Shown: piece after piece, positions 4,356-26,553 of the stretch | Position numbering within the stretch: the stretch's first letter is position 1 | How the letters are laid out: every line of letters begins with the position of its first letter | Origin: Promethearchaeota archaeon | Lineage (GTDB): Archaea; Asgardarchaeota; Lokiarchaeia; Sigynarchaeales; SOKP01 | Reading direction: 5' to 3' | NCBI GenBank assembly: GCA_030605085.1 | Contig: JAUWBH010000001.1 | Location: forward strand, 1-64,000 | Length of the DNA stretch: 64,000 nucleotides | The notes under the pieces: generated by a model | Seen by the model: the letters and a program-made list of their open reading frames with translations, nothing else | The model's database searches: none | Told to the model about the DNA's origin: nothing | Program-made: the position numbers and the translations under genes

Positions 4356-5924
4356 TTATCCAGAATCGTTAATCTGGGTTAAATTGCTTAAATTCTTGTA
4401 CATATTATTGCGTTTTAGTAATTTATACAATTCGACTGAGTAATTATATAATTTATCGTAAAAAGTATGTTGTTCGTCGCGTGGTGCCCATTTTTTATCG
4501 ACTTTACACAAACTTTCAGCAGCTTTAGCGATATCTGGAAATACACCCGCACCAGAAGCGGCTAAGATAGCAGCACCTAAAGATGTTGCTTCTTCAATTA
4601 TGTTTCTTACACATGTAACTCCCAGAACATCCGCGTAAATCTGATTCCAAAAATCAGAACGAGATCCTCCACCAGTAAGCAATAATTCTTTCGGTTCAAT
4701 TCCCAATTCTTTAAAAACTTCAATATTTTTTCTCACTTCATAGGCAACGCCTTCAAGTACAGCACGATATAAGTCTTTCCGTTCGTGTCCTAAGGCTAAT
4801 CCAAAAATCAAGCCTTTAGCGTATGGATTCCAATGAGGGGCTCCTGCACCGACTAAATGAGGGATTAAAAGCAAACCATTCGCACTAATAGGGGATTTTT
4901 CTGCTTCGGCAGTCATTATATCGTATGGATCTTGCCCTTCCTTCGCAGCCATGCATTCAGCTTGTCCAATATGATCTCTAAACCACCTAAGAACAGCCCC
5001 GGTTGTAAAAATACTTGCTTCTTGGACCCAAGCGCCAGGTATTGCGTGACAACTGCATAAAACCCTCTTTTCAGGGTCAAAGTTTGGTTCGCTTAAATAG
5101 GCAAGGATAAAACTTCCGGTTCCTGTCGTACATTTTATTTTTCCTGGTGATACTACTCCAACACCTAAAGCCGCAGATTGCTGATCTCCTGCACCTGTTA
5201 TTACTAAGGTGTTTTTTTCAAAGTTAGTTTCGTCAGTAACAATTTCTCCAATATCAACACCACTCTCAACTGGATCGGGCATTTTATCCAAACCAAGTCC
5301 CAATTCAGAAGCAATTTTATCAGAATATCTTAATTTTTTAATATCAAACAACATCGTTCTTGATGCGTTAGAAAAATCAGTGACAAACTTTCCAGTTAAT
5401 TTATATATAATGAAGTCTGAGACTAGCAAAAATTTATGAGTTTTTTGATAAATATCCGGTTTCTTATCTTTAAACCATAAAATTTTTGTGGCGGAAAAAT
5501 ATGGATCGATGGTTAATCCAGTTGTTTCGTAAATTTTGTCTAATCCAATCTTATTTTTTATATATTCTACTTGATCTATCGTGCGTCTATCCTGCCAAAC
5601 TAACGCGTTATGGAGTGGGTTACCCTCTTTATCTACTGGAACAATTGTTTCTCTTTAATCTTTCGGAAAGAAATTTTAAACCGAAATTTGATTGGTAATA
5701 GAACAGCTAACTATTTCTGTACTATCGATCCCGCTTTTATTTATAGCGTTTTTAATAGTACTCTTTATGGAAATCCACCATTCGTTAGCGTCTTGCTCCA
5801 CATATGAGGGTGCTGGATACATACTAGAATATTCTTTATAATCCGAACCGATAACACCTCCTGATAAATCAAAAATTATCGTTCGGCATCCCGTTGTTCC
5901 AAGATCTAAAGATGCTACATACAT
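4356..5924 (-). CDS. FGGY-family carbohydrate kinase, interrupted by a 33-nt BHB intron
   Basis: ATP-dependent sugar or polyol kinase of the FGGY family (xylulokinase/glycerol kinase group). The N-terminus has the phosphate-binding LDLGTTGCRT motif. The centre has ALVWQDRRT and SNASRTMLFD, and the C-terminal half has GAGDQQSAALG, TTGTGSF and LLLTGGGSRSDFW. The genomic frame contains two stops, at 5676-5678 and 5655-5657, both inside a 33-nt insertion. Excision gives ...TNQ|RETIVPVD..., the conserved NQRE motif of glycerol kinase-like enzymes, and a protein of about 511 residues, normal for the family. NQRE and ASRTMLFD resemble glycerol kinase, while the GTGSF region resembles other FGGY kinases, so the substrate is open. 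Confidence 0.9.
5655..5687 (-). other. 33-nt BHB-type intron in FGGY kinase gene
   Basis: In the transcript, AATC just before the site pairs with GATT at the insertion's 3' part, giving a 4-bp central helix. Each side has a 3-nt AAA bulge, and the inner stem is TTTCGG/CCGAAA. Cutting after the second base of each bulge, the normal archaeal splicing-endonuclease rule, removes exactly 33 nt. The join is AAT CAA | AGA GAA ACA (N Q R E T), precisely the family motif. The outer helix is weak. Two in-frame stops inside mean that without removal only an 82-residue fragment is made. Confidence 0.85.
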
Positions 5925-6053
5925 TTTAACAACTCCTATTTTTTAAATTTCTAAAAATATATTTTAATATAAATAGAATATGAATAAAAAGTTGTTCTTC
6001 TTAAAATAATTAATTTTCCTTATTAAAATTAAAATAAAATTTCGCTTTTTCTT

Positions 6054-6204
6054 TTATATTTTAGGACTTATCCAATATGGAAATTCAAAAAAGACAATTC
6101 CATTATCATTAAGAATATGAATTTTAAGAAAGTCATCAAACAAACCTACAAGAAACGAGTCTAATTCAAAAAAAAAAATAAGTAGTTATTCCTTTGAATT
6201 TCAT
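6054..6204 (-). pseudogene. possible short gene broken at an 11-T tract
   Basis: Downstream of the zinc-ribbon gene on the same strand, an ATG at 6204 opens a frame (MKFKGITTYFF) that stops at an 11-base T run (6168-6178 on the plus strand as A). With one base fewer, the frame would continue through ELDSFLVGLFDDFLKIHIL and FFEFPYWISPKI to a stop at 6054. The continuation looks protein-like, but there is no recognised family and no clear ribosome-binding site. It could be a homopolymer error, a slippage site, or chance. Confidence 0.25.
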
Positions 6205-6217
6205 TAGCTGTTTTTTT

Positions 6218-6907
6218 TTAATTTCTTTTTTTCATTTCATATCCGCATTGAGGGCAAATTAATTTTCCAAAACCGATTTTGTAATCTTGTATTTCTGCCA
6301 ATAATCCATTACATAGAGGACATCTTGGTTTATGGGCAGGGAACCATTGACCTTGGATATTTGGCATATTTCTCAAAACATTAGAGATTTTCAATCTATT
6401 AAAGTAATCCTTATTGAATCTAAATAATTGTTGCTCCTCAGCAATAGATTTTCCTTTTGCACCTAAAATCATTAGGAATTTAATTTTTGAGGGTGTATTG
6501 AGTATAGATAATGTACGTAAAATTGCATCTTTCTTAAATTCTGAAAACAATTTGGCGAGTTCAGGAGGAGCTAAAGCGACTAAAATAGCTTGAGATTTCT
6601 CTACATCTTTAACTTTTTGAAATAAAAACTGGAACATTCTATTTTCGTTATCAAAAGCCCAAATAAAATTCCAAGTGAGTATATCGTAATCTTCGTTATT
6701 AGGGCCAATAATTCTTTTTATGCATTGTACAAACGAATAATAGTTAAGGTTATATACTTTAGAACGCAAATCATCGAAAAATTCCTCTTCAATAACGGGA
6801 AAACTCTTAAGTACGCTTTTTAAGGATAATAATTTTATTTGAGTCAAATGCTTTGTTTTAAGATCTTCCCATGGAGTATCCACATAAATAGAAAAAAAAT
6901 CACTCAT
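6218..6907 (-). CDS. uncharacterised protein with C-terminal zinc ribbon
   Basis: About 229 residues starting at MSDFFSIYVDTPW; an upstream TTG would add 12 hydrophobic residues and is less likely. The body is helical, with a segment (LVALAPPELAKLFSEF) that faintly resembles FliG/MgtE-N-like superhelical repeats. The C-terminus is a CPLCNG...CPQCGY zinc ribbon. No family is recognised. It is monocistronic, with AT-rich flanks. An adaptor or nucleic-acid-binding role is only a guess from the ribbon. Confidence 0.7.
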   Translation of the reverse strand: MSDFFSIYVDTPWEDLKTKHLTQIKLLSLKSVLKSFPVIEEEFFDDLRSKVYNLNYYSFVQCIKRIIGPNNEDYDILTWNFIWAFDNENRMFQFLFQKVKDVEKSQAILVALAPPELAKLFSEFKKDAILRTLSILNTPSKIKFLMILGAKGKSIAEEQQLFRFNKDYFNRLKISNVLRNMPNIQGQWFPAHKPRCPLCNGLLAEIQDYKIGFGKLICPQCGYEMKKRN

Positions 6908-7089
6908 CAAAATAAATAATAGTTTTAAATGTAATAAATTCAATTAAAAGATTTAGCATCGTGAAATGTGTGTTTCACGAATTTTCACGAAATTTGGACT
7001 TTTAACTCAATTTTCGGAAGAAATGTTTTAAAAAAGAATTATTAAATCTTGGATCACAATTAATTAATGGTATTTAAAAAGTGATTTAT

Positions 7090-8366
7090 ATGTACAATTA
7101 TTTAATTAGTGAAGAAAACAGAAAGTTAAGAGAGGAAGTTCGAGAATTTGTAAAAACCGAAGTACCTCCGTCTTTATTGAAAAAAATGGATCAAAACGAA
7201 ATACAATATCCAGCAGAATATATGTATAGTTTAGCAAAGAATAATTTGATCGGCGTAAGATTTCCAAAAGAATATGGGGGGCGTGGATTAAATTGGGAAA
7301 GTGAGATTATTTGCCTGGAGGAGATAGGCGTGTTAGGAAGTTCTTTGGCTTGTCTATTTTCTTTACCGAGTATATGTGGTGAAGCATTGAATTCGTTTGG
7401 AACAGAGGTGCAAAAGCAAAAGTATCTAAAACCTATGTGTGAAGGAAAAAAATTCACTGCCGAAGCATTAACAGAGCCGAGAGGGGGATCAGATTTTTTT
7501 GGTGCCACATCAACGGCAATAAAAGAAGGAGATCGTTACATATTGAACGGAGAAAAGCGTTTTGTTGTAGGTGCAGAAGGAGCAGACTTCTTTTTAGTTT
7601 ATGCTAGGACAAATCCTAATGCTCCCCCTCACGAATCGATAAGCCTTTTTATAGTAGATAAAACTGACGCTATTGAGACAGCGTATATATATGGATTGCT
7701 AGGTACAAGAGGTGGTGGTGCGGGTAGAATCGTATTTAAAGATGTTGAGGTTCCGGAAGAAAATATTATTTTAGGTGAAGGTGCGGGAGGAAAGATTTTT
7801 TACCAGATGATGGTTCCAGAGCGATTAACAACTGCCGCTGGATTTATTGGGCTAGCCAGAGCTTGCCTTCGGATTGCGACAAAATATAGTACTAAGAGAA
7901 AAGCGTTTGGTCAAACTATAAATAGATTTCAAGCAGTTAATTTCATGATCGCAGATAGCATTACATATTTAGACGCTGCTAGATCAATAGTTTTCAACAC
8001 AGCAAAAAGTATTGACATCGGAGCACCCCCTGCTTTACAGAGAAGATTAGTTTCTGAATCTAAAAAATTTTCAACCAAGGCAGGTTGGAAGGTTATTAAT
8101 AATTCTATGCAAATACTAGGAGGAATTGGTTATACAACCGTTTATCCAATAGAACGCCTTCTCAGGGATTCCAGAATCGGTGAAATATGGACCGGTACAA
8201 ACGAAATCGGGATTGTAATTGACCCCATTTCGGTACATCCGAAATTATGAATTTAATAATTCAGCACGAGTATTATAAAGAAGTTTTAAGTGAGAAATGG
8301 CGTGATCGGGATGTGGAACAAGACGCTATCGACGCTGAACACGAAGAAGAAAAACATTACGGTTAA
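7090..8366 (+). CDS. acyl-CoA dehydrogenase, interrupted by a 38-nt BHB intron
   Basis: FAD-dependent acyl-CoA dehydrogenase that introduces an alpha-beta double bond into acyl-CoA. Family motifs are present: [12 protein letters not shown] (FAD/substrate loop), [12 protein letters not shown], and the C-terminal [21 protein letters not shown] followed by the GTxE segment. The annotated frame would stop at 8250 after a non-homologous tail. Removing 8201-8238 gives [20 protein letters not shown] and an acidic end, as in archaeal homologues, for a total of about 412 residues. The base equivalent to the catalytic Glu cannot be fixed from sequence alone. ATG 7090 is preferred over GTG 7081 because a GTGAT Shine-Dalgarno-like motif precedes it. 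Confidence 0.9.
8201..8238 (+). other. 38-nt BHB-type intron in acyl-CoA dehydrogenase gene
   Basis: A 4-bp central helix GTAC (8195-8198) / GTAC (8233-8236) is flanked by 3-nt bulges AAA (8199-8201) and ATC (8237-8239). The inner stem is CGAAAT (8202-8207) / ATTTCG (8227-8232), extended by GGG/CCC. Cutting after the second base of each bulge joins ACA A|CC GAA ATT ATG, giving T-T-E-I-M, the normal dehydrogenase C-terminal motif. Without removal, the frame runs into a stop at 8248. Confidence 0.85.
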
Positions 8367-8630
8367 AATTTAAGTTTTTTTTTTAAATTATTTATTTTTA
8401 AAACTCAAATGATGAGTATAAAATAAATAGGAATGATTGTTAATTTCTAGAATATACTCTTACTATTTAAAAAACATTAGAATTATTTTAAATCCTGATA
8501 AAAGTTTCCATCTAATAAATTAATGATAGAATTTGATTAATTATTATTGATTAATAAGTACAATAGAAGAACCGAATACTCTAATTTAATAAAAAATTAA
8601 ATTAGAAATTATATGAAAAAAATATATTTA

Positions 8631-9852
8631 TTATTGTTTAGAAAGATATCGGATTCTTACCATTAAGTCGCGTAGCTCAATCTTATCGCTATCAGGTTTA
8701 ATATATTTTTTTTGTGCTCCTTCAGCGAGAGGGACGGACTCGACCAAATTGCCTTGAAGTGAAACCATGTAGCCAAATTTTTCTTCTAATATTAGTTTCA
8801 TAGCAGCTAAACCAAATCTTAATCCTAATATTCGATCAAACGAGTTAGGAGTTCCTGCTCTCATAGTATGTCCAAGTACGACACTACGACATTCAAAATC
8901 TACGCCATTTTTCTGAAATTCTTCCTTTAGATCGTCTCTAAGGTTTAATTCTTTGATTAATATGTTTGATATGTTTAAAGCTGGTAAAATTGGATTGCCA
9001 AATATGTCTTTAGGTAATTTATCAATAGTTTCTTGAGTAATTGTTTTGAAATCGCGTTTTAAAGATTCTTTATCCGGATAAGCACCCTCAGAACACGCAA
9101 TTATGTGATATTTATATCCCGCCCTAGCCCTTCTTTTAAGAACCTCAACAACATCCCTTTCAAAATCAAAGGGTGTTTCGGGAATCAATATAATATCAGC
9201 ACCAGCAGATATTCCGCTATACATTGTAAGAAAGCCAGCATCGCGTCCCATTATTTCAACAATAAATACTCTTTGATGAGATCTAGCTGTAGTTGTTAAA
9301 TTATCCATTGAGTGAGAGGCAAGTTGTACAGCACTCCAGAATCCAAAAGTGTAATGGGTTCCTGCTAAATCGTTATCTATTGTCTTTGGACAACCTATTA
9401 CTTTTGCATTTGTATGTCTATACATCGCATCTGCAACGCCAAGTGTATCATCTTTAGTTTAAAATTGAAACCATTTTAAATCTCCACCAATCGCGATTAG
9501 CGCATCGATGCCAAGTTCGTCAAATTTTGTTGCCATGTTTTTAGAGACTTTAGCGACTTGTTCAGGATCATCTCTATTAATTCCCTTAAAAGGGTTTGTT
9601 CTGCTGGTATATAATATTGTTCCGCCAATCGTATGCAGGTCGTCGTGTTCAGCTATGTTTAATGGTATTGTTAAATTTTCCATGAATCCTTTCCATCCTT
9701 TTTGTATTCCAATGCATTCTATTCCTGTATCAAAAGCTTTTAACATAATTCCATAAAGTACGCTATTAAGCCCGGGGCAGTATACGGCAATCAAGGAGAA
9801 TCTTGAATATGGCTCCGCCGCCCGTTAAAATTCCAACTTTTTTAATAACCGT
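8631..9852 (-). CDS. 6-phosphofructokinase (PPi-type signature), interrupted by two BHB introns
   Basis: Phosphorylates fructose 6-phosphate in glycolysis. After removing 9782-9812 and 9454-9483, the frame reads KKVGILTGGGDCPGLN at the N-terminus, then IAIGGDDTLGV and GCPKTIDNDL, about 386 residues in all. GGDD plus PKTIDND (Asp and Lys at the donor-determining positions) is the signature of pyrophosphate-dependent enzymes, whereas ATP-dependent ones have GGDG and GTIDND. MGRDAGFL matches the substrate loop. The open frame has no ATG, GTG or TTG start: after TGA it runs ACG GTT ATT AAA AAA, and GGTGA lies 6 nt before the ACG at 9850-9852, which I take as a near-cognate start. Introns are inferred from motif restoration and RNA folding. 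Confidence 0.9.
9454..9483 (-). other. 30-nt intron 2 of phosphofructokinase gene (relaxed BHB)
   Basis: The unspliced frame reads IAIGGD then runs into a TAA within the insertion. Removing 30 nt restores GG|A GAT GAT ACA, i.e. GGDDTLGV, the conserved phosphofructokinase motif. A short central helix GGT/ACT (one G-U pair) with bulges GGA and AAA fits the standard cut positions. The inner hairpin is TTAAAAT/ATTTTAA. The central helix is only 3 bp, so this is a relaxed motif. AGAT is repeated at both borders, so the exact ends can slide by up to 4 nt without changing the protein. Confidence 0.7.
9782..9812 (-). other. 31-nt BHB-type intron 1 of phosphofructokinase gene
   Basis: The insertion shifts the frame by one base inside the first glycine-rich loop. 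Central helix GCGG (9818-9815) pairs with CCGT (9787-9784), bulges are AGC and ATA, and the inner stem includes TCAAG/CTTGA. Cutting after the second base of each bulge joins GGA G|AC TGC CCC GGG, giving G-G-G-D-C-P-G-L-N, exactly the conserved motif. Both the length (not a multiple of three) and the codon rebuilt across the junction argue against coincidence. Confidence 0.85.
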
Positions 9853-9896
9853 ATAAAATCACCATAATTATTTTTAATTTGGTACTTTGACTAATT

Positions 9897-10015
9897 AATT
9901 AAGCCATTTTCAATTAAAAAAGTTATGATGATACGTAATATTCTTATATATGACTTAATTAAAATTTGATCAACTTATGATGAAGATAAATTAAGCCATT
10001 TTCTATTAAAAAGTT
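9897..10015. repeat. pair of ~28-bp direct repeats between phosphofructokinase and ZPR1 genes
   Basis: An ATTAAGCCATTTT-core repeat followed by an A-rich run occurs at 9897-9924 and again at 9988-10015 with one substitution and one indel. A TTATGATGA motif also recurs between them. It lies between the phosphofructokinase start and the convergent end of the ZPR1 gene. The purpose is unknown. Confidence 0.6.
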
Positions 10016-10028
10016 TTCAAAAAACTTT

Positions 10029-10589
10029 TCAAATAATATTTGATTTTTTAAAAGAGTATTTCAATTCATCCTGAGGAATTATATAACTTCCACCTTCAGA
10101 ATCTGTTATTTTTAATGTAAATTTAAGTTGTCCCTTTTTAGCTTTTTGTAAGTCCTTTAATATCGCTTCAATCTTATTTATTTGGGGCTCATCATCGTCT
10201 AAATTATTCCGATATATTTGAACAGCACTTTCAAATCTTAGTAATATGCCCTCTACATTTGTATAATAAAAATCAGCGCTTGGGCCAGGCTCTACAGCTA
10301 AATCTAATTCTGGAATTTCTATTTTTCCAGTTGGAGATCTATAGATTTTTGATTTTAAGTCTTCCTCGTTTGTTACTTTTAAAGTCATTATACCAGGTTC
10401 CATGTTTGTCGTTAGAGGGATAATGTCATTTTTTATAAAATTACAACTATCACACTCAAATTTCAAAATTAACATTTTATCTCCATCTGAAAGGTCATAG
10501 ATACTCTTATGTATTTTTATATTTCCACCTTCACATGCAGGACATTTTAAAGCAAATTCCTCTTCAGTTTTTTTAGCTTTCTCAGACAT
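10029..10589 (-). CDS. ZPR1-type zinc-finger protein
   Basis: 186 residues with a CPAC...CDSC zinc finger (residues 15-50), followed by the ZPR1 beta-rich domain (TLKVTNEEDLKSKIYRSP, then IEIPELDL). Eukaryotic ZPR1 binds and helps fold translation factor eEF1A and has two such modules, while archaea have one; here one module fits the usual archaeal length. Monocistronic with an ATG start. The family call is confident; the eEF1A-chaperone role in archaea is inference from eukaryotes. Confidence 0.88.
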   Translation of the reverse strand: MSEKAKKTEEEFALKCPACEGGNIKIHKSIYDLSDGDKMLILKFECDSCNFIKNDIIPLTTNMEPGIMTLKVTNEEDLKSKIYRSPTGKIEIPELDLAVEPGPSADFYYTNVEGILLRFESAVQIYRNNLDDDEPQINKIEAILKDLQKAKKGQLKFTLKITDSEGGSYIIPQDELKYSFKKSNII

Positions 10590-10981
10590 CAGTTTAGGTA
10601 AAAGAATGCATTTTTATTATATTAATATGTCTCTATTTTTTTTTTTTGATAATAAGATGCTCGAAACCATTAACTCATCTATTAAGATTTAAGGTTATAA
10701 AATAATTTCGAAAATTTTTTATTGTACCCGATTTTTTCGATATTAAATATTATATTAATTGATTATTAACACATGATATAAAGTTGAGAAGGAATGATAA
10801 AAATTAGTAAATATTGCGAATCACTTGTTCAAAGCTTTGTATTGGTGTTAAATATTTTACTTATTTTATTACATGTAGTAATTTTATAATTGCAACCATA
10901 AAAATGTGTTTTTCTGCGTTTTGATTGGTTGCATTGGTGATATAACATATAAAAATCAAAAAAGGAAAAAGTTGGAAAAAT
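10590..10981. other. intergenic region upstream of the por operon
   Basis: About 390 nt of AT-rich sequence separates the divergent ZPR1 and porG genes. It must hold both promoters, but I see no convincing TATA/BRE pair or operator. AAAAAGGAAAAAG just before 10982 could be a weak ribosome-binding site for porG. No coding potential was found. Confidence 0.5.
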
Positions 10982-11551: not shown

Positions 11552-11554
11552 AAG

Positions 11555-13158: not shown

Positions 13159-13160
13159 AA

Positions 13161-16653: not shown

Positions 16654-16717
16654 AAATGGTTTTTTAATTTGTTAATATTAAATCATTTTCAAATACTAAA
16701 ATCTTAATTACAATCAT

Positions 16718-17540
16718 ACTTGAACTACTAGCCCTTAAAAGGGCGAGATTCCTTCTTCCTCGAAAACTGCCCGAAGAGATTCCGAAGGATCTCTTTAGGT
16801 CTTACATCTTCTCCAAAGGCGTGACTTAATCGTTCGCTTATTATTTGTTTCTCGTTCGCGTCGTCTTGAGCTTCCAAGGTGAAAGACACGAAATACTTGT
16901 TCGATTTCGTCTTTTTGACGGTGGCGCGTTTGATCTTTTCAGAAAACACCCTCTCATCGTTATATTTTATCCATCCTAATTTCGGTAACTTTACTTTCTT
17001 TCGTTCAAAATCAATCTTGATATTTCCATTCGTTTGCTTGGTCGTATAACTTTCCTTCCCCTTCCTTGACTTGAATTTCGGAAAGCCCACCTTACGACCA
17101 TTCTTCAAACCGTTAAAAAAGTTTTGATACGCCTCAAATAAGTGTTCCCTTGAGGATCGTAACGCAATGGAGTCAGCTTCTTTTAGAAAAAGAAACTCTG
17201 CTTTGTATTGCTTTTCGGTTTTGTAGGTATAATCTTTAAGAGCTTCTTTATCGTCTTTTAACCGTTCATAGACTTCTTTCCTCTCGTTTAACATCCAGTT
17301 ATAGACGAAGCGACTACACCCGATTGTCTTGTGAATCTGAGTCCGTTGCATCTTATTCGGATATATCCGAACGTTCATAGCTTGAATCATTTGCTTATAA
17401 AAAGAAGTAATCATCATTTAAATGGATTACGGGTCGGTGGTTTTTTGATTTTTTCTTTGAAAAAATAAGGCTCAATTCATCACCACCATAAATGGGGGTG
17501 TTTTCTTGAGCGGTCAGGATAAAAATAGCGATTTTTATTT
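16718..17540 (-). mobile_element. IS200/IS605-type element, internally deleted (non-autonomous)
   Basis: The right end has a small hairpin GCCCTT/AAGGGC (16731-16744) that contains the stop codon of the internal gene and is followed in the element's sense by TAGTAGTTCAAG, as in IS605-type right ends. The left end has a subterminal hairpin GCTCAA/TTGAGC (17470-17511) enclosing an imperfect CACC...GGTG stem. Such elements transpose as single strands through subterminal hairpins and lack terminal inverted repeats. No tnpA is present. The left end abuts the 3' end of ecfT. The outer left boundary is approximate. Confidence 0.75.
16728..17417 (-). pseudogene. TnpB-like (OrfB) remnant with catalytic core deleted in frame
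   Basis: 229 residues. The N-terminus is a classic OrfB HTH domain (MNVRIYPNKMQRTQIHKTIG, CSRFVYNWML, then FPKFKSRKGKESYTT). After about residue 190 it jumps directly to a TnpB C-terminal tail (HAFGEDVRPKEI ... RKKESRPFKG). The RuvC-like catalytic residues and the four-cysteine zinc finger are missing, so no guide-RNA nuclease activity is expected. The frame is nevertheless open throughout and the element ends are intact, so it may be mobilised in trans or the shortened protein may be retained. Confidence 0.8.
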
Positions 17541-17561
17541 TAAAGATTTTAGAATATAGTT

Positions 17562-19199: not shown

Positions 19200-19217
19200 T
19201 TAGATCATCCTTTCATT

Positions 19218-20063
19218 TTAATTTATGTGTTTAAGACAATTTATGGCCTCGTTAATAGAAGCAGGAATTTTACCATCGTATAATTTTTCCTTTATTAATT
19301 GAGTAAATATCGAGTAAATAACTGGTTTATTTATGTTTAATTTTTGGAAATTTTCACTATTTAAAACCTTATCTCGCTCATCATGTTCAAGGACTTTTCC
19401 ATCATTTAATAAAATAATTTCATCTGCAAACGGGACTAATAAATCTAATCGGTGTTCACTAATGATTATTGTCATTTTTGTGTTAATTTGGATTTTTTTC
19501 AATAACTTAATGATTTTAAGGGCGAAGGCAGGGGATAAAAGTGCGGTAGGTTCATCTAATATAAGGACTTTAGGTTCTAAGACCAAGATCGACGCAATTG
19601 CAACTTTTTGTTGTTCTCCACCGCTTAACTCGAAAGGTGCTTTATCCAAAAGGTGTTCGATTTTGGTGAGATTAATCACTTTTTTAATTCTTTTAACCAT
19701 CTCATCCTTAGGAATCCCTAAATTTTCCAATCCAAAAGCAATTTCGTGTTCTACATTCATTGAGATTAACTGATTTTCAGGATTTTGAAAGACTATTCCA
19801 ACAAATGTAGATAATTCTGCAATAGGCGTTTCAGAAGTATCCATTCGACTTTCGCCAACTTCTACATACCCTCTGTAATAGCCCGCATAAAATTGTGGAA
19901 TCAAACCATTCATACTTCTAATTAAAGTAGTTTTACCACTCCCAGTAGGACCCACAAGTAATATAAATTTATTTTTCTCAATTTTTAAATTAATATTATT
20001 TAATTGATATTCCTCATTTCTTTTATAACGAAAATAAAAATTGTTATATCTAATTAAACACAT
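19218..20063 (-). CDS. ECF transporter ATP-binding protein (EcfA-type, second)
   Basis: 281-residue ABC ATPase with Walker A GPTGSGKTT, Q-loop IVFQNPENQ, signature LSGGEQQKVA, Walker B VLILDEPTAL and switch His in SEHRLD. It pairs with the downstream ATPase as the heterodimer of an ECF module. First gene in the three-gene operon ecfA-ecfA-ecfT. ATG start. Confidence 0.93.
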   Translation of the reverse strand: MCLIRYNNFYFRYKRNEEYQLNNINLKIEKNKFILLVGPTGSGKTTLIRSMNGLIPQFYAGYYRGYVEVGESRMDTSETPIAELSTFVGIVFQNPENQLISMNVEHEIAFGLENLGIPKDEMVKRIKKVINLTKIEHLLDKAPFELSGGEQQKVAIASILVLEPKVLILDEPTALLSPAFALKIIKLLKKIQINTKMTIIISEHRLDLLVPFADEIILLNDGKVLEHDERDKVLNSENFQKLNINKPVIYSIFTQLIKEKLYDGKIPASINEAINCLKHIN

Positions 20064-20100
20064 AGTAAAGTTTACAAATTCTATTGTTATGAAGAAATTT

Positions 20101-21120
20101 TTATTTATTTAAAATTTGTTTTATTTTATCGATAATTCTATTAATAACGGTTTCTAACTCATTTTTCACATTAATAGATGCTGCACCATCATGTCCCCCA
20201 CCGCTAACCATCATGTCACATTCTCCTGTAATATCCTCTAAAATTTTACCTAGATGTAAGCCGGTTTTTAAACAAACTTCTTTTTTAGCTCTAGTACTTA
20301 TTCTATATTCAGATTTTTTCTTCGAAGCTACTATTCCTACGTCAAATCCTACCTTTGTTAGCAAACTGGCCACACTCGCTTCAAAACTACCTACATGTGT
20401 TACTCCAATCAACCAATCTCCTTCTTGAATTAATTGGACTCTTTGTAAACCTTTAATTTTTGCAATTTTTTCAGATAGGTCCTTTTTAATCTTTAGCGTT
20501 GAGAGGATTTCTTGATAATCTAATTGCTCGTTAAACAGTTTTGAAACATGTATGATAGTTTCTTTGTTTCCGTACCTGAAAAAGCCAGAATCAGCTAAAA
20601 TAGCTGCTATAAGAAGATATCTATATGGAAGTGTTAAATCTACATCAAATTCTTCGCATAATTCAAATATAATTTCTGCTGTAGAAGAATATTCATCAAT
20701 TATGATATTTAAATAAGTAAGGTTGCCACTATATTCTCTTTTCAGATTTAAGTGATGATCCAAAAAAATAAAGGGAATATCTAAATTAAATAAATTAAAA
20801 TAATTGTGAAATTTTACTTGATCTAAGTTATTTGTATCTAAAATAATAATTGCATCAATTTGTGAAATATCAATATCGTATTTGGGTGTAAATTTAATTT
20901 CGGGAAATTTTTCAGCAAATTTATCGCAAAATTCTCTTGTTGGTTTGGTAAATTTTGGGAAAATTAAATATACATCATTAGTATTGTAATATTGATTAAT
21001 AAAAAATTTTAGGACGAGACAAGACGCGATTCCGTCTATATCCACTGATTTATGAGAAGTAATGACTATTTTTTTATTTTTTAAAAAAGCTACAAAATTT
21101 TCAAATTTGGATTTTAACAT
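20101..21120 (-). CDS. DHH-family phosphoesterase (nanoRNase/RecJ-like)
   Basis: 339 residues. Motifs of the DHH phosphatase core appear in order: ITSHKSVDIDGIAS (metal-binding), IIILDTNN, FLDHHLN (DHH) and LADSGFF. The DHHA1 substrate domain has SGGGHDGAAS near the C-terminus. Such archaeal proteins hydrolyse short oligonucleotides or cyclic dinucleotides; which one applies is not shown by sequence. It lies 4 nt downstream of prefoldin beta and looks cotranscribed. Confidence 0.9.
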   Translation of the reverse strand: MLKSKFENFVAFLKNKKIVITSHKSVDIDGIASCLVLKFFINQYYNTNDVYLIFPKFTKPTREFCDKFAEKFPEIKFTPKYDIDISQIDAIIILDTNNLDQVKFHNYFNLFNLDIPFIFLDHHLNLKREYSGNLTYLNIIIDEYSSTAEIIFELCEEFDVDLTLPYRYLLIAAILADSGFFRYGNKETIIHVSKLFNEQLDYQEILSTLKIKKDLSEKIAKIKGLQRVQLIQEGDWLIGVTHVGSFEASVASLLTKVGFDVGIVASKKKSEYRISTRAKKEVCLKTGLHLGKILEDITGECDMMVSGGGHDGAASINVKNELETVINRIIDKIKQILNK

Positions 21121-21124
21121 GCGT

Positions 21125-21487
21125 TCAAGAACTTTTATTTTGAAGATCAGCTTGAATGGAAGCTCTCATGGTATCAATTTGTTTTTTAGTTCTCTCTATC
21201 TTTTGAGTTAATATTTTAGAACGCATTTCAAGTGTTACTTTCAAGGACTTTTTTTCGTCAAGAAGCTTGTTTTTTTCACTTTTTACCAAGATTCCACCAA
21301 TAGATTTGTATACAGCATCATCAGGATTAATTTTTTCTAATTCTTCTATTGCTAATTCAGTATCTCTTAAGGAGGACTCAATTTGAAATTTTTGCTGTGT
21401 TAAATATTCCATCGTAGCTGATAGATTTTGTAATTGTATGACTTTATTTTTTACCTCAGGATCGAGATTATCAAGGTTAATCGTCAT
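21125..21487 (-). CDS. pfdB: prefoldin beta subunit
   Basis: 120 residues with two coiled-coil helices flanking a short beta linker (DDAVYKSIGGILVKS), the beta-type prefoldin architecture. Beta subunits form the hexameric chaperone with alpha subunits, presenting unfolded proteins to the thermosome. In many archaea it closes the exosome-ribosomal cluster next to pcc1 and rpl37ae, as here. Confidence 0.9.
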   Translation of the reverse strand: MTINLDNLDPEVKNKVIQLQNLSATMEYLTQQKFQIESSLRDTELAIEELEKINPDDAVYKSIGGILVKSEKNKLLDEKKSLKVTLEMRSKILTQKIERTKKQIDTMRASIQADLQNKSS

Positions 21488-21649
21488 TGTACTTATTATT
21501 GATTTTATTTTTAGTAGTTATATAAATTCATTAGCTATTATATCTTTTTTCAATTATTCTAACTTTAAAATCAAATATAAAGACAAAAAATTTTTATTAA
21601 AATAATTTTAATCCCATAAAATATAGATTATTTACTCACAGATAGGATT

Positions 21650-21913
21650 TTACTCGCAAAGTTTTAAAGTGTTGTCAATAATTTTACCCAAGCTAACTAT
21701 ATCGTTAATAGAAGCCCGAAAAGCTGTAATGTCAGTGCTTTCTATATAAAAAATTAAAGATTTATTTTTTTTTTCTATCTGCATTTTAGTTCGATTAGAT
21801 TTTAGATTATTAAATTCTGGTAAAAACGAGTTATAAGAGATATCTCGAGTTTGAGAATCGTTAAATTGTAGTTCTATGGTGGATTTTATTGAATAATAAT
21901 TATTTTGACTCAT
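21650..21913 (-). CDS. KEOPS complex subunit Pcc1
   Basis: 87-residue small protein with the Pcc1/CTAG pattern: STIELQF, SFLPEFNNLKSNR and TAFRASINDIVSLGKIID. Pcc1 dimerises KEOPS and binds Kae1 for tRNA t6A synthesis. It overlaps the L37Ae gene by 1 nt and belongs to the exosome superoperon. Together with Sua5 and Cgi121, a large part of the t6A pathway is in this window. Confidence 0.82.
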   Translation of the reverse strand: MSQNNYYSIKSTIELQFNDSQTRDISYNSFLPEFNNLKSNRTKMQIEKKNKSLIFYIESTDITAFRASINDIVSLGKIIDNTLKLCE

Positions 21914-22206
21914 TATTCTTCAATTACTTCTAATTCTCGTTGCTTCCGCTTGGCAATTCGGAACGATTCGGCACCTCGTGGAGTTTCAATGTAATATGCT
22001 CCTCCCGTAAATTTTGCTTCACACTTCCTACAATGCCAAATACCGGTGGAAATCCTATTAACAGAACCTTTTGTTTCACATCTTGGACATTTGGTTTGTT
22101 TACTCTTCATCTTTTCCATAATCTGACGATATCGTTTCCTGAGGGTGCTCCCATACCTAGCCCCAAATTTTCCATCGATTCCGACTTTTTTAACCAATAT
22201 GACCAC
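21913..22206 (-). CDS. rpl37ae: large ribosomal subunit protein eL43 (L37Ae)
   Basis: 97 residues. VGIDGKFGARYGSTLRKR and the zinc ribbon CPRC...WHCRKCEAKFTGGAY are the family's hallmarks. The start may be GTG 22206 or the TTG four codons downstream (MVKKVG). In most archaea the RNA polymerase subunit RpoP follows this gene; here pcc1 follows directly with no gap, so rpoP has moved or been lost from the cluster. Confidence 0.93.
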   Translation of the reverse strand: MVILVKKVGIDGKFGARYGSTLRKRYRQIMEKMKSKQTKCPRCETKGSVNRISTGIWHCRKCEAKFTGGAYYIETPRGAESFRIAKRKQRELEVIEE

Positions 22207-22394
22207 TAATAACGAAAAATATTATTACAAATTTATTTGTTAATTAAATAAGTAAAATTAGCAATCCTAAATTAATTTTTTTATTTATTTTAATTGAAAG
22301 TTCAGCTTAAATTATTAGAACATTAGGTTATAATGAAATTTAAAAAAAAATTAACAAAAAAAATTAAAAATACATTATTAAAAATAAAAAATTA

Positions 22395-23219
22395 TTAAAA
22401 TTTGGCTTTATATTGCCAAAGATTCAAGTCTTTTCTTAAATTACGAGCTATTTCAAGAGATTTCTTGCTCAACATTTTAATTTCATCAAAAGAAAAAGTT
22501 GTTGCTCCACTTTTTTGGATGGATGTTATTTTATTTTCTGTACAGGATATTGAGATTTTACCATCACAGACCAATTCTTCTGGCAAATTAGGATCTAAAA
22601 AAATTATTTCGGCAATTTTTCCATATGTTATGGCTAATGGTAATTCTTTTATAATAGATTCACCAGTCAAATAGTTTCCCGTCCATTCTAATCCGTTTTC
22701 TGTTAGTTTTCCTTCAGGTATCTTAGAGGAAATTAGTGTAACTAAGGAACTTACGCTACCACAATCAATTAAATTCCCTCCATAATTTATTACGTACATA
22801 TCTATAAATAAAATATAAACATATTCGTTTTCCTTTATACAAAGTTTTTTAGTTTGTACGCAATCTGCATGGCGAATTCCCCGATCTACTACTCTTGCTA
22901 ATTCAATTGATTGTTTGTCGGGTGGACCTCTTTCAAATAATGGTGAGGCTAAAGGTAATAATTCTGCCATAACTGTACAGACGCCTTCGTCTGGCATGTC
23001 TGGAAATGGTACTCCAACATCGTATTTTAATCCAGTTATGATTCTTGTATCTCCTAATTGGACATCAGCGGAACCTTCTGCCGAAGCGATAAAGTCAGCA
23101 GTTATCTTAAATTCACGATAATCCCATAAACCCCTACCGTCAATTCTTTTTTCTTTTCTCAAGTTATCTTTTATATATTTACGTTCTATTGTTGAGATTA
23201 CTCGTTTTACATCCATCAT
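22395..23219 (-). CDS. rrp42: exosome complex subunit Rrp42
   Basis: 274-residue RNase PH-fold protein, the catalytically inactive partner of Rrp41 in the archaeal exosome ring. The RNase PH core is seen in RIDGRGLWDYR, SADVQLGDTRIITG, VDRGIRHADCV and YGGNLIDCG. Rrp42 provides RNA-binding residues while Rrp41 holds the active site. Two nt separate it from rrp41. A 188-nt AT-rich gap to rpl37ae downstream suggests a break in the transcript or a separate promoter. Confidence 0.93.
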   Translation of the reverse strand: MMDVKRVISTIERKYIKDNLRKEKRIDGRGLWDYREFKITADFIASAEGSADVQLGDTRIITGLKYDVGVPFPDMPDEGVCTVMAELLPLASPLFERGPPDKQSIELARVVDRGIRHADCVQTKKLCIKENEYVYILFIDMYVINYGGNLIDCGSVSSLVTLISSKIPEGKLTENGLEWTGNYLTGESIIKELPLAITYGKIAEIIFLDPNLPEELVCDGKISISCTENKITSIQKSGATTFSFDEIKMLSKKSLEIARNLRKDLNLWQYKAKF

Positions 23220-23221
23220 TA

Positions 23222-24007
23222 TTAATTAACCTCTCCATTCCTTTTTGGTTGTGATTGTTTTTCAACATCTTCTTGAATGCGAAGATATTTATTTTTTAAA
23301 GCAGCTAATTGCATTTCGTAAACTTTGCTGGCTGCATTTTTAGCGAGATCTAAGAGTATATTCATCTCTTCCGCATTAATATCCCCGTCGAATTGTAATA
23401 ACGCAATCTCGTTATTAAACCATGTAATAGCTATAGGTAGATCTGCTTCTCCTGCCTTGTCTTCTATTCCTGAAAGGTCTACAACAATCTTTCCATCAAT
23501 TTTTCCCATTGCTAACGCTGTTATTAAACTTTTCATAGGGATACCTGCATCAGCTAAGGCTAAAGATGCAACAGTTGTGCTCGCGCATCGCGTACCACCA
23601 TCAGCATCAATAATTTCAATAAACACTTCAAAACATGTACCAGGGTATAGTTCAAGAAATAATACTGGTTGTAAACAGTCAGTAATTATCATCGAAATTT
23701 CTTTTTCACGACGACCAGGAGCTGGTCTTTTTCTTTCGAATACAGAGTATGTCGCCATGCGGTAAAAAACTCTTAAAATTCCCCTATCTGGTTTGGCTAA
23801 ATGATGGGGGTGTACTTCTCTGGGTCCATAAACGGCAGCGAAAATTTTATTATTACCCCATTCTAAATATGCAGATCCATCAGCGTTTTTCAAAACACCT
23901 GTTTGCATTTTAATAGGGCGTAATTCATTATTATCACGACCATCCAATCTTTTGCCATCTTCTCGAAACAATTTATCCGGATACTCATCTTTAATCAATA
24001 AAACCAT
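23222..24007 (-). CDS. rrp41: exosome complex catalytic subunit Rrp41
   Basis: 261-residue RNase PH-type phosphorolytic 3'-5' exoribonuclease. KRLDGRDNNELRPI, GPREVHPHH, RPAPGRREKE, TRCASTTVASLALADAGI and DLSGIEDKAGEADLP (metal- and phosphate-binding aspartates) are the active-subunit signatures. It degrades RNA or adds heteropolymeric tails within the exosome. It sits between rrp4 and rrp42, 2 nt from each. Confidence 0.95.
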   Translation of the reverse strand: MVLLIKDEYPDKLFREDGKRLDGRDNNELRPIKMQTGVLKNADGSAYLEWGNNKIFAAVYGPREVHPHHLAKPDRGILRVFYRMATYSVFERKRPAPGRREKEISMIITDCLQPVLFLELYPGTCFEVFIEIIDADGGTRCASTTVASLALADAGIPMKSLITALAMGKIDGKIVVDLSGIEDKAGEADLPIAITWFNNEIALLQFDGDINAEEMNILLDLAKNAASKVYEMQLAALKNKYLRIQEDVEKQSQPKRNGEVN

Positions 24008-24009
24008 AT

Positions 24010-24795
24010 TTAATCAAGACCTCTTTGTTTTTTTTCATCTTTAACAAATGCTTGGATCCTATCAGTCAGCCCAGTAGTATGTGCTTCTCTCTCTATTTTG
24101 TTTATTGCTTTAATAAGAATACGCTCGTATTCGATATTATCTCCCCGCAACCAAATACGCCCATTCTGAGTTACAAAGATATTGCAATTTGTTAAACTTT
24201 TCAACATTTTTATCATCGACCCATTGCGTCCAATTACACGCGGTATTTTTGGGGGATCTATTGAAATTACTATACCACCTATTTTTTTCCCGAGATATTT
24301 TCCAACAGTTGTTAATTCGGGTTTATTCAAGCGATCTGCGGAAAGTATTTTCACAACTAAAACATCTCCAATTTTGAATTTATCGGTAGAAACATTTTCC
24401 TCACTAAAAACACCTCTTCGACCACCTCTTCCTAATCGTCCCTTTTCTCTCTTTATCGTATTTTTAGGTTTCAGTTGAGCAAAATCTTTCGCATTAATTT
24501 CGCATTTGTATTTTACTGGATTTTTATCGACCACTACAGCGATGACTTTGTCTCCTGGATGAGGTGTGTAAATACCTCTAAGAGGAATGACATTTATATA
24601 ATTTTTATTAATATTTTTTAATCCTATTACAAGCGAAATAATTTTATCTTTTTCTTTATTTAATATTGTTCCTCTTCCAGGCAAAAAATTTGTGGTATCC
24701 TCAGATAAAATTTCTCCGGGTACGACTAGTTCTCTTATAATTTCTTCATCTACGAGCTTATCTTGTTCATTTGTTAATTGTTCATTTTCTTCCAT
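24010..24795 (-). CDS. rrp4: exosome RNA-binding cap subunit Rrp4
   Basis: 261 residues: an N-terminal beta domain (VPGEILSED, FLPGRGT), an S1 domain (GDVLVVKILSADRLNKPELT) and a KH-type GXNG loop (IPRVIGRNGSMIKML). It caps the RNase PH ring and recruits RNA. GRGGRRG in the S1 region is unusually glycine- and arginine-rich. Cotranscribed with rrp41. Confidence 0.94.
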   Translation of the reverse strand: MEENEQLTNEQDKLVDEEIIRELVVPGEILSEDTTNFLPGRGTILNKEKDKIISLVIGLKNINKNYINVIPLRGIYTPHPGDKVIAVVVDKNPVKYKCEINAKDFAQLKPKNTIKREKGRLGRGGRRGVFSEENVSTDKFKIGDVLVVKILSADRLNKPELTTVGKYLGKKIGGIVISIDPPKIPRVIGRNGSMIKMLKSLTNCNIFVTQNGRIWLRGDNIEYERILIKAINKIEREAHTTGLTDRIQAFVKDEKKQRGLD

Positions 24796-24894
24796 ATATC
24801 TTTACTCACTCTCTTCATATTAATTATTCGTAAACCTAACTTATCAAAAAAACAATGTAAACAAGATATAATTTGTAATTTATGGGTTAGAAAC

Positions 24895-25686
24895 TTAAGT
24901 TTTTAGAAGTTTAGTCTGAACCCTTCCATGAGTTAATTTATTCAATTTATCAATTAATTCCATTTGTAATCCAGCCGGTAAACTGACGATAGAAACCCAA
25001 GATCCATCAGATTGCCATTCTTCCTTTTTTATTTGTGTTAATTGAGCTACAATGTTGTAACCTTTTGCCGTAAAGGACGAAGGTATTTTAATTGCTAACT
25101 CGACTTGTTCCATTCGAATTGGTATAATTGTTTGAATTTTTTTAACAACATCGTCAACTTGTTCTTCAGCATTTCTCATTAAATCAATCTTCACCTGTGC
25201 CTCTTGAATTGCTTTTTCTATCCGTTGGACTGGATGAGGTTTTTTATTTTGAGGATTTATTGCGTTTTTACTGATAATGCTTATTATTTTTTTTAATTTT
25301 TTTTGTCTCTCTTCTTCCCTCTGAGCTTTTGTCCAATGAATTTCTCCTTCTAAAAGGATCTGACCTGCAATTCTCATTCCATCAGTTGTGTTAAATACAG
25401 CCTCCATATCACCATCAGTTGCTTTCTTACCTCTTTTTAAATCTTCAAACACCGTAAAACTTTCAAAAATTAATTCCAAATTAATTTTTGGATTATTTGT
25501 TAATTCATCAACAGACATACGAGATTTTTGCTTTCCTTCTTTTAATCTTCTATCGATTTCGTTTCGTATAATTTTTTTTGCGTCCCAAGCCTTCTCTGGG
25601 TCCATTAATAGTTCAAAAACCCTCCCAGCTTTTTCAATGCGTCCAATAATATAACCGCCTATGTTTATTCTTGCTCTATCAATCAT
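24895..25686 (-). CDS. sdo1: ribosome maturation protein SBDS homologue
   Basis: 263 residues with the SBDS three-domain layout: an N-terminal FYSH domain (ARINIGGYIIGRIEKAGRVFELLMDP), a helical middle domain (HPVQRIEKAIQEAQVKID), and a C-terminal ferredoxin-like domain (SWVSIVSLPAGLQMELI). SBDS releases aIF6 from 50S subunits together with an EF-2-like GTPase. Archaeal order psmA-sbds-rrp4-rrp41-rrp42 is preserved. Confidence 0.94.
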   Translation of the reverse strand: MIDRARINIGGYIIGRIEKAGRVFELLMDPEKAWDAKKIIRNEIDRRLKEGKQKSRMSVDELTNNPKINLELIFESFTVFEDLKRGKKATDGDMEAVFNTTDGMRIAGQILLEGEIHWTKAQREEERQKKLKKIISIISKNAINPQNKKPHPVQRIEKAIQEAQVKIDLMRNAEEQVDDVVKKIQTIIPIRMEQVELAIKIPSSFTAKGYNIVAQLTQIKKEEWQSDGSWVSIVSLPAGLQMELIDKLNKLTHGRVQTKLLKT

Positions 25687-25800
25687 ATTATTGCGAGTTC
25701 CTTATTTTTTTAAAATTAACTCTATATTTCTCTCATATCCTATGTCTTTTCAAGATATTGAAAGATCAAAAAATAAGGTAATTACCTTGATTTTTAAAAT

Positions 25801-26553
25801 TTATAATTCTTTTAATAACTGTTCCTTCTCATCTATACTTAACAATTTGAATTTTAATTCTTTTTTCTCAATAAGGGCTATATCACAAGTATTTTCATTC
25901 AAATTATCACCCATTAATTCTTTTAATGTTCTTAACGGTAATAATTTTAAATCTTCATCGCTTACATCATCTTTATAATTTTCTTCAAGGTATGTTCTTG
26001 CTTCGGTCGCTCCCGACCCAATCGCAAAAGCTTTATAGCCCCACATAGCCCCAGAGGGATCTGTTAAATATAACGATGGACCATTAGAATCGATTCCAGC
26101 AACTAAGAAAGAAACTCCAAAAGGCCTTACCCCAGCATTCTGGGTGAATGCTTGTTTATATTCACAAATATTTAAAGTGGCATCTTTCACGGAAATTTTC
26201 TCATCATAACTTAATAAATTTATTTGAGCTTGAATTCTAGCACGGTCAATAAGAACACGCGCATCAGCTGTTAAACCTGCGATTGCCACTCCAATATGAT
26301 CATCAATTTTAAAAATTTTTTCAGAACCTATCGTTTCTTGAAGTTCTGAACTTTTCTTTTCAACAGCAAACACAACTGAATTTTTATTTCTACATACAAT
26401 AGCTGTTGTACCTCTCCGTACAGCTTCAATCGCATATTCTACTTGAAAAAGACGACCTTCTGGCGAAAATTACCTATTTTTTGAGAAGTTCAAAAAATTT
26501 TGGGTAATCGCCATGTCGTAACCTCTTCCTGCTTGCTGGAACATATTTTTCAT
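25801..26553 (-). CDS. psmA: proteasome alpha subunit, interrupted by a short BHB intron
   Basis: 20S core alpha-ring protein. The unspliced frame from ATG 26553 (or ATG 26544) reads MFQQAGRGYDMAIT then reaches a stop after about 10 unrelated residues. Past the insertion it continues SPEGRLFQVEYAIEAVRRGTTA, the alpha-subunit signature, and the rest is normal to about 237 residues. An excision of 30 nt gives AITQFSPEGRL, matching family length; strict BHB cutting gives 33 nt and AITHSPEGRL, one residue short. GGAG lies 4 nt upstream of ATG 26553. First gene of the exosome superoperon. Confidence 0.92.
26468..26500 (-). other. BHB-type intron in psmA (33 nt by structure, 30 nt by protein)
   Basis: This site gives a complete textbook BHB. 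The outer helix is GGCGA/TCGCC, the central helix is TTACC/GGTAA, the bulges are CAA and TTT, and the inner stem is a perfect 9-bp ATTTTTTGA/TCAAAAAAT with loop ACTTC. The rule of cutting after the second bulge base removes 26468-26500. Protein conservation would prefer 26471-26500 (T-Q-F-S-P-E-G). An in-frame TAG is not read because the frame differs, but a TAA in frame ends the unspliced protein. Confidence 0.85.

Follow-up and report, generated by a model that had tools for sequence, protein, structure and literature searches.

How can four conserved enzyme genes of a Promethearchaeota archaeon, a Lokiarchaeon, specify intact proteins when five short inserts break their reading frames? The 64,000-nucleotide stretch analysed here (contig JAUWBH010000001.1, referred to as the window) contains all five of the frame-breaking inserts of 30–38 nt claimed in the original prediction (33, 31, 30, 38 and 30 nt). 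Each causes a frameshift or puts a stop codon into the frame read from upstream, each lies at one point in a conserved protein motif, with a break point defined by uninterrupted homologues, and the motif is restored upon removal. The split motifs are, we presume, active-site motifs. We consider it very probable that the five inserts are introns of the bulge-helix-bulge (BHB) type, predicted to be excised from the mRNA by the splicing endonuclease EndA and followed by joining by RtcB. Their behaviour as BHB introns is supported, at the level of sequence, by their position, their geometry, their recurrence elsewhere and the covariation of one of them.

The gene for an FGGY (sugar/glycerol-type) kinase lies on the minus strand at 4356–5924, with exons 5688–5924 and 4356–5654 recognized from the open reading frame and the joined translation, in which ITNQRETIVPVD is restored; its 33 nt intron is at 5655–5687 (AATC-AA^A...GATT-AA^A, where ^ is the cut). 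The ATP-type phosphofructokinase (PFK) gene (8631–9852, minus strand) has three exons according to its joined translation and to tblastn against 39 relatives' loci; it has no in-frame ATG, GTG or TTG start, and an ACG at 9850–9852 aligns with the start Met. PFK intron 1 (9782–9812, minus strand, 31 nt; GCGG-AG^C...CCGT-AT^A) splits the Asp codon between GGGD and CPGLN, and PFK intron 2 (9452–9481, minus strand, 30 nt; GTGG-AG^A...CTAA-AG^A, with a weak central helix) that between IGGD and DT. The acyl-CoA dehydrogenase gene is on the plus strand (7090–8366, exons 7090–8200 and 8239–8366), an open reading frame with unbroken homologues, and excision of its 38 nt intron (8201–8238; GTAC-AA^A...GTAC-AT^C) restores 11 protein letters. 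In psmA, which encodes the proteasome alpha subunit (25801–26544, minus strand; exons 26500–26544 and 25801–26469 in the joined translation), removal of the 30 nt intron (26470–26499; ACCC-AA^A...AGGT-AA^T, the central helix having a single C-A mismatch) restores AITQFSPEGR. The predicted exon junctions at window or carrier sites join GGAG to ACTGCCC, GGTGGAG to ACGATAC, ACCAATCAA to AGAGAAAC and GATTACCCAA to TTTTCGCC. The window is locally rich in such introns, with four genes of which three lie near each other.

Cuts were ranked under a fixed BHB geometry of pre-tRNA topology, with a four-base central helix, three-base bulges and a cut after the second bulge base, each excision being compared with 555–765 neighbouring cut pairs. 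The scored set of 17 excisions (15 in mRNAs, two in tRNAs) contains several homologous sites and is a selection, with three of the ten PFK intron 1 sequences and one of the seven PFK intron 2 sequences. In 9 of the 17, no other cut pair scores as high as the restoring excision (or a slide with an identical product), and in 13 no more than five pairs, the excision included, reach its score. The other four are PFK intron 1 in the window (24 equal-scoring pairs) and in relative L110 (17), the FGGY intron of L225 (9) and the Helarchaeal Rrp4 intron (87); in a separate ranking, where the restoring excision comes first in 10 of the 15 mRNA cases, these four rank 9, 6, 5 and 52, respectively. The original prediction that a fold search finds exactly the restoring excision thus holds for the FGGY kinase and the dehydrogenase, where the restoring cut is the unique best among 765 and 745 pairs, and nearly for PFK intron 2 (three pairs score as high) and psmA (4 of 753, itself included); for PFK intron 1 in the window, the cut is only loosely predicted. 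The two tRNA introns 3 kb from psmA were also said to follow the same rule, and indeed the strict rule fits both: they lie at 29274–29292 in tRNA-Ser(TGA) (29237–29338, plus strand; Rfam tRNA and BHB scan) and at 29420–29441, in the T arm, in tRNA-Lys(CTT) (29360–29455, plus strand; ARAGORN and BHB scan).

With this geometry, the first base of both bulges is A in all 17 scored introns. Full or partial pairing joins the exon's final four bases ahead of the 5' bulge to a four-base segment close to the 3' end of the insert; in most cases a hairpin opens one nucleotide into the insert from the 5' cut and closes immediately before that segment. The pairing score of this central helix, in which G-U counts half, is at least 3.0 of 4 in 14 of the 15 mRNA cases (12 of 15 in the separate ranking); it is 2.0–2.5 of 4 for PFK intron 2 (62.5% paired). 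The outer helix adjoining the 3' bulge is present in both tRNA introns, in PFK intron 2 (96.7% paired) and in Rrp4 (4 of 4), and is weak by the bulge in FGGY, PFK intron 1, the dehydrogenase and both psmA introns (1.0–3.0 of 4); among the mRNA introns, the relaxed BHB form thus predominates over the strict one. PFK intron 1 has an outer helix that pairs well only given a four-base 3' bulge (92%), and its inner stem is interrupted in the window. Despite the loose prediction of its cut, PFK intron 1 is supported by covariation: across ten sequences 95.3% of cells are paired, against at most 51.9% in slid controls, and five pairs, all in the inner helix, have changed on both sides, a number that none of 500 shuffles reached (kinship uncorrected). 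The aligned PFK intron 2 sequences show no covariation. The FGGY central helix is AATC/GATT in the window and AACC/GGTT in L225, a two-sided change, while one central pair is lost in L163. Two introns that share a site in Elp3 have GTGG/CCAT in common and differ in their hairpins.

PFK intron 1 occurs at the same site in 9 of the 39 relatives' PFK loci and intron 2 in 6 of the 39, in both cases with diverged sequence (five partial matches and one paralogue were left out of this survey). FGGY kinase relatives are present in all 50 genomes, at least two of which have an intron at the same site (L163 and L225, 30 nt each); for both genes, therefore, interrupted and uninterrupted relatives exist. 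The psmA and dehydrogenase inserts were found at their sites in the window contig only: AITQFSPEGR or its equivalent is continuous in all 59 Asgard loci examined (80 loci fetched), and the dehydrogenase is unbroken in 38 relatives' matches of at least 59% identity, among the matches listed. In fifteen distant dehydrogenase paralogues the reported stops were at the gene end or were absent from a second alignment. Other carriers among relatives are RtcB, where two strains have an intron within the catalytic motif, Elp3, Helarchaeal psmA and Helarchaeal Rrp4, which brings the total to nine sites in seven families besides cbf5, with lengths of 25–38 nt, in Lokiarchaeia and Helarchaeota. The breaks seen in MAT (genome G011) and RtcB (G058) are stretches of N and not introns, and stops flagged at 18 loci of Elp3, one of GatE and two of GatD fall within the last ten residues or are gone in a second alignment. 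The mRNA introns are patchy among related strains.

Proteins that could act on such introns are encoded in the same lineages. The splicing endonuclease domain PF01974 is present in 50 of 50 genomes, with two or more matches in 41, and RtcB in 53 of the 58 relatives' genomes. The relatives read have two kinds of EndA subunit, one with a His/Lys region, whose nearest solved relative is Aeropyrum pernix EndA and whose G-PL..KPR loop aligned to it, and another lacking that His. We propose a model in which the pre-mRNA would fold into the BHB structure, a broad-specificity, heteromeric (alpha-beta) EndA would cut both bulges after the second base, and RtcB would ligate the exons, the intron being lost. 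Since the inserts split conserved motifs, unspliced transcripts would be expected to give truncated, inactive enzymes.

Could the inserts instead be artefacts, or be dealt with in another way? Hairpin-like sequences placed in the contig by sequencing or assembly error would agree with the restriction of the psmA and dehydrogenase inserts to the window contig, and N-filled gaps do occur in metagenome-assembled genomes. However, the PFK and FGGY inserts are found at identical sites in such genomes that, judging by their contig names, come from different projects and assemblers, and they have diverged while still pairing. Recurrence at one site with diverged sequence cannot be explained by assembly error, which could thus concern only the two inserts seen in a single contig; as an account of the whole set we find it very improbable. 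We give as little credence to the idea that the genes are decaying pseudogenes with ordinary insertions: a stop or frame break is present in every one of the four, but removal of the inserts restores the motifs exactly, and the four joined genes show no other damage save the lack of a standard start codon in PFK. Moreover, 252–254 codons are open in the downstream PFK exons at 12 carrier loci, with dN/dS values of 0.024–0.093 in the computable pairs and 0 for L111/L115; these exons are under purifying selection.

Ribosomes are known to hop over message segments in T4 gene 60 and at the byp elements of yeast mitochondria, and the inserts, short and hairpin-forming, resemble what such translational bypassing would require. 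At PFK intron 1, however, the Asp codon is split between G and AC with a single possible cut (one slide, in the window and in L110), so that there is no landing codon for the peptidyl-tRNA that would yield the conserved Asp, and matching take-off and landing codons were not found there. Bypassing would also leave unexplained why the exon–intron helix is maintained and why tRNA introns, which are never translated, fit the same rule, and we regard it as highly unlikely, if marginally less so than error or decay. Recoding of the insert stop codons, with translation of the inserts, has a precedent in the selenocysteine and pyrrolysine recoding of some Asgard lineages described in a section of PMC9723677; its probability is negligible, as the 31 and 38 nt inserts shift the frame, TAA is among the insert stops and homologues have no insert peptide. 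Other intron classes were rejected: the ribozyme core of group I or II introns takes hundreds of bases, compared with 25–38 nt here, and no RNA family other than tRNA reaches the Rfam gathering score in the window, while the ends of the scored introns vary and are not the GT-AG of spliceosomal introns.

The PFK genes also bear on how the introns move. The junction codons of intron 1 are GGC GGA GAC in 10 of 10 carriers and in none of the 26 non-carrier loci (kinship uncorrected). The possibility that the PFK introns are ancestral, and patchy owing to many independent losses and not to exchange between strains, is in keeping with a site identical in all carriers read, and with non-carriers of intron 1 that lack the carriers' exon letters, so that neither insertion nor loss has left a trace. 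Against it, a 40-row PFK tree needs nine changes for intron 1 and six for intron 2; the near-identical genes of L111 and L115 differ in intron 1, within a tract that has many more mismatches than the remaining gene; and the PFK of L112 differs by about 18% from that of L091 between flanks that are 97–98% identical over some 210 bases per side. We regard ancestral loss as a possible but rather unlikely account, and the PFK introns appear, from these alignments, to travel with recombined exon stretches and not to be inserted afresh each time.

How frequent are these introns? Over 200 loci (2.17 Mb with overlaps, from relatives and the window itself), a homology scan yielded only the PFK, FGGY, window psmA, window dehydrogenase and two Helarchaeal introns. 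After filtering it gave 18 rows, of which 10 are named introns and 8 were dismissed by eye (L024, L027, L031, L032, L039, L047, L053 and L054, with 3–9 supporting loci), as they resemble antisense or low-complexity frames; the unfiltered scan gave 687 rows, mostly of this same kind among those listed. A de novo scan for a BHB plus an open frame gave no enrichment in the Loki set (46 in-frame joins and 25–51 for shifted cuts) or in the window (3 and 1–5). In the Helarchaeal sample it gave 11 in-frame joins and 4–6 for shifted cuts, but by eye the 11 resembled gene–gene junctions or chance. No intron was recognized in GatE, GatD or MAT (58, 56 and 54 of 58 genomes), stop counts, used for these three and for FGGY, the dehydrogenase and Elp3, being blind to in-frame inserts that lack a stop. 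The mRNA introns are thus rare overall, and the high density claimed at first is supported for the window locally and not as a trait of the genome. They may have affected annotation: of the best 120 listed entries nearest PFK exon 3, 12 (the window's own included) begin with the first Met that follows intron 2 and 17 with the first Met past the intron 1 motif (mostly protein entries alone), a sign that systematic truncation of proteins may occur in Asgard gene catalogues.

A broader reading, for and against which we feel evenly divided, is that Lokiarchaea and Helarchaea possess a second type of mRNA splicing, in which mobile introns of about 30 nt, lodged in the active-site motifs of genes for metabolism and information processing, would be removed by EndA and RtcB and spread by homologous recombination with matched exon letters. 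Because the RtcB intron lies in the catalytic motif, the ligase would then have to splice its own message, an inherent feedback switch that would couple splicing capacity to itself. If the introns are spliced, the closest archaeal relatives of eukaryotes would have a simple way of splicing mRNA, and carriers and non-carriers among close strains make spliceosome-free intron gain and loss directly testable in a lineage next to eukaryotes.

An intron in the cbf5 pre-mRNA of Crenarchaeota was reportedly described by Watanabe in 2002. As of 2009, cbf5 was the only gene family with confirmed archaeal mRNA introns, and its intron concerns one gene in Desulfurococcales and Sulfolobales (Yokobori, 2009; PMC2738675). 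A search of the CC-licensed PMC literature gave no report of Asgard mRNA introns, and the sections seen of PMC12397907, PMC13149111, PMC12817955, PMC12918454 and PMC12558985 mention none. In contrast with cbf5, the introns found here affect PFK (two sites), the FGGY kinase, acyl-CoA dehydrogenase, psmA (two sites), RtcB, Elp3 and Rrp4, measure 25–38 nt, and are patchy between close strains of Lokiarchaeia and Helarchaeota. Like archaeal tRNA BHB introns, which according to an excerpt of PMC11291895 are abundant in some Asgard genomes, they have a four-base central helix and three-base bulges with a predicted cut after the second base; they differ by lying in mRNAs, within conserved protein motifs, and by an outer helix that is often weak or displaced. 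The two predicted subunit kinds encoded by Lokiarchaeal genomes recall the heteromeric (alpha-beta)2 EndA of Crenarchaea (PMC6379350, in part). The predicted removal of an mRNA intron by a nuclease and a ligase, with no spliceosome, also has a eukaryotic parallel. In the splicing of XBP1 and HAC1 mRNA, IRE1 is the nuclease and RtcB or a tRNA ligase joins the exons; that system differs from the one proposed here in its nuclease, its RNA motif and its stress trigger.

Four genes of the window are broken by five inserts, of 33, 31, 30, 38 and 30 nt. Excision of the 33-nt insert of the FGGY kinase gene (5655–5687, minus strand) restores ITNQRETIVPVD, and excision of the two inserts of the phosphofructokinase (PFK) gene, intron 1 (31 nt; 9782–9812, minus strand) and intron 2 (30 nt; 9452–9481, minus strand), restores GGGDCPGLN and IGGDDTLG respectively. 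Removal of the 38-nt insert of the acyl-CoA dehydrogenase gene (8201–8238, plus strand), cut according to the bulge-helix-bulge (BHB) rule, restores a stretch of 11 residues, and removal of the 30-nt psmA insert (26470–26499, minus strand) restores AITQFSPEGR. The window is a Lokiarchaeal contig: the protein encoded by psmA exon 2 is 91% identical to psmA of a Lokiarchaeota MAG, and all except one of the 80 loci retrieved with this exon carry an Asgard label. PFK lacks an in-frame ATG, GTG or TTG near its start in three intron 1 carriers (the window and loci L115 and L110 from relatives); where the start Met aligns, the window has ACG (9850–9852), and L115 and L110 have ATA. Elsewhere in the window, two tandem, similar genes (29563–31650) each seem to combine three parts, the first resembling a DNA-binding domain, the second a kinase-dimerisation domain and the last being a response regulator, and a 229-amino-acid ORF (16728–17417) is one that we take to be truncated and TnpB-like.

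AITQFSPEGR or its equivalent is uninterrupted in 59 of the 59 psmA loci examined (80 fetched), as is the dehydrogenase in the relatives' matches listed (n = 38, at least 59% identity). Inserts at these two points are known from the window contig alone, and this presence in a single contig would fit an assembly error. Such an error cannot explain the PFK and FGGY inserts, however, because inserts at the same sites are found in MAGs whose contig names indicate different projects and assemblers. PFK is present in 44 of 50 Lokiarchaeal genomes, and the 39 loci read have intron 1 in 9 cases, intron 2 in 6 and both in 4; the FGGY kinase codon broken in the window also carries an insert in genomes G003 and G029, the only two of 50 with a stop inside the near match. 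As for ribosomal hopping (bypassing) over the inserts, PFK intron 1 of the window has a single possible cut, which splits the Asp codon, so that hopping cannot give the conserved Asp. Nor does it help to suppose that the stops are read as amino acids (recoding), because the 31-nt and 38-nt inserts shift the frame.

Cleavage at a BHB occurs after the second bulge base. We scored a fixed rule, with the 4-base central helix and two 3-base bulges described in a passage of PMC6379350, for every cut pair within 15 bases of the restoring excision in 17 introns, including 3 of the 10 PFK intron 1 and 1 of the 7 PFK intron 2 sequences; where several slides gave the same product the rule-fitting slide was chosen, and the P values account for that choice. 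The restoring excision was the unique best among 555–765 cut pairs in 9 of the 17 (FGGY in the window, dehydrogenase, Helarchaeal psmA, RtcB twice, Elp3 twice and both tRNA introns), and at most five cut pairs scored as high in 13 of the 17. The misses were FGGY of locus L225 (9 cut pairs scoring as high), PFK intron 1 of the window (24) and of L110 (17), and Helarchaeal Rrp4 (87). An earlier scoring of 15 cases had placed the restoring excision first, alone or tied, in 10. The original prediction, that the rule gives the exact restoring cut in the kinase, PFK intron 1 and the dehydrogenase, thus holds for FGGY and the dehydrogenase but only loosely for PFK intron 1 of the window. Its extension to tRNA-Ser(TGA) (intron at 29274–29292) and tRNA-Lys(CTT) (29420–29441) was borne out, both having unique best cut pairs and an outer helix. 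The intron of tRNA-Lys(CTT) interrupts the T arm, which is not a canonical site. A is the first base of both bulges in all 17 introns, some of the sites being homologous. The tRNA introns, PFK intron 2 and Rrp4 have the outer helix that defines a strict BHB; in the remaining mRNA introns scored, a set without RtcB and Elp3, this helix is weak or displaced.

Across 10 sequences of PFK intron 1, 95.3% of cells are paired, against at most 51.9% in slid versions. Both partners have changed in five pairs, every one of them in the inner helix, and 0 of 500 shuffles were as high; the further pair types were not above shuffles (234/500). In the central helix, where changes are between G-C and G-U, pairing reaches 100%. 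Among 6 distinct sequences of PFK intron 2 covariation is absent, the outer (96.7% paired) and inner (100%) helices being nearly invariant and the central helix 62.5% paired. The FGGY central helix pairs AATC with GATT in the window and AACC with GGTT in L225, and is short of one pair in locus L163, while in Elp3 GTGG/CCAT is common to two differing hairpins at one site. The exon letters also differ with intron presence: the intron 1 junction codons GGC GGA GAC occur in 10/10 carriers versus 0/26 non-carrier loci, and the intron 2 junction ATC GGT GGA GAC GAT AC in 6/7 carriers (the window differs) versus 0/27, counts that exclude loci without a readable motif (4/40 and 6/40, respectively) and ignore shared ancestry. 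For the 120 PFK codons analysed downstream of the introns, dN/dS values are 0.024–0.093 in computable carrier pairs and 0 for L111/L115, dS being saturated in many pairs.

A 40-row PFK tree requires 9 changes for intron 1 and 6 for intron 2. The L111 and L115 genes are almost identical for most of their length and differ in intron 1 and in a mismatch-rich tract that starts upstream and ends about 60 bases beyond the intron. L112 and L091 differ by about 18% within PFK, with flanks 97–98% identical over about 210 bases per side. The divergent tracts of both pairs are sharply bounded, as after homologous replacement. Counted from the GGG motif, the initial 60 bases, with intron 1 among them, have 2 differences between L112 and L115, and much of the remaining PFK has 5–7 per 30. 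The divergent tracts may be chimeric contigs; the simplest reading of these alignments is that gene pieces would have been exchanged through homologous recombination.

Five further conserved families (RtcB, Elp3, GatE, GatD and MAT) were searched in 58 genomes, and two have introns. RtcB (53/58 genomes) is split by 29 nt at one point, within GGVGY|DINCGVR, a motif that we take to be catalytic, in G035 (L250:433–461) and G037 (L251:1285–1313), with a predicted BHB; an intron in the splicing ligase's own gene may allow self-feedback of splicing. Elp3 (match in 57/58 genomes, many weak) has a 31-nt split at one point in G029 and G007. Two introns occur in the Helarchaeal MAG Hel_GB_A, one of 31 nt in psmA, at a different point from that of the window, and one of 25 nt in Rrp4. 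No intron was recognised in GatE (58 genomes), GatD (56) or MAT (54), 200 loci (2.17 Mb, overlaps included) scanned by homology gave no retained sites beyond those named, and in-frame excisions were not enriched in a structure-only scan of the Loki set. Introns are therefore rare, yet distributed over several genes, and the high density first proposed as a trait is not upheld by either scan. Splits of MAT in G011 and of RtcB in G058 were runs of N, and stops in 18 Elp3, 1 GatE and 2 GatD loci were gene ends or absent on checking.

PF01974 is found in 50/50 genomes of Lokiarchaeal relatives (the window's own not being among them), with at least two matches in 41. Eleven of these proteins were compared: 7 are of a first kind, with a His and Lys region, and 4 of another kind, without the His. 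The one first-kind protein searched aligns best to the tRNA-splicing endonuclease EndA of Aeropyrum pernix. By pattern, first-kind loci have a G-PL..KPR loop in 27/30 cases and the His-Lys stretch in 23/30. The loop aligns to an A. pernix stretch containing a Lys; presumably it is the EndA specificity loop with its key Lys, and a passage of PMC6379350 is supportive. That passage restricts efficient removal of relaxed BHB introns to (alpha-beta)2 and epsilon2 enzymes.

A literature search that excluded most subscription papers and all preprints found no paper on Asgard mRNA introns. Abundant tRNA introns are described in a passage of PMC11291895 for the Asgard groups Atabeyarchaeia and Freyarchaeia. 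Archaeal pre-mRNA splicing has been demonstrated for cbf5, which, as a passage of PMC2738675 puts it, was in 2009 the sole confirmed gene, others being predicted.
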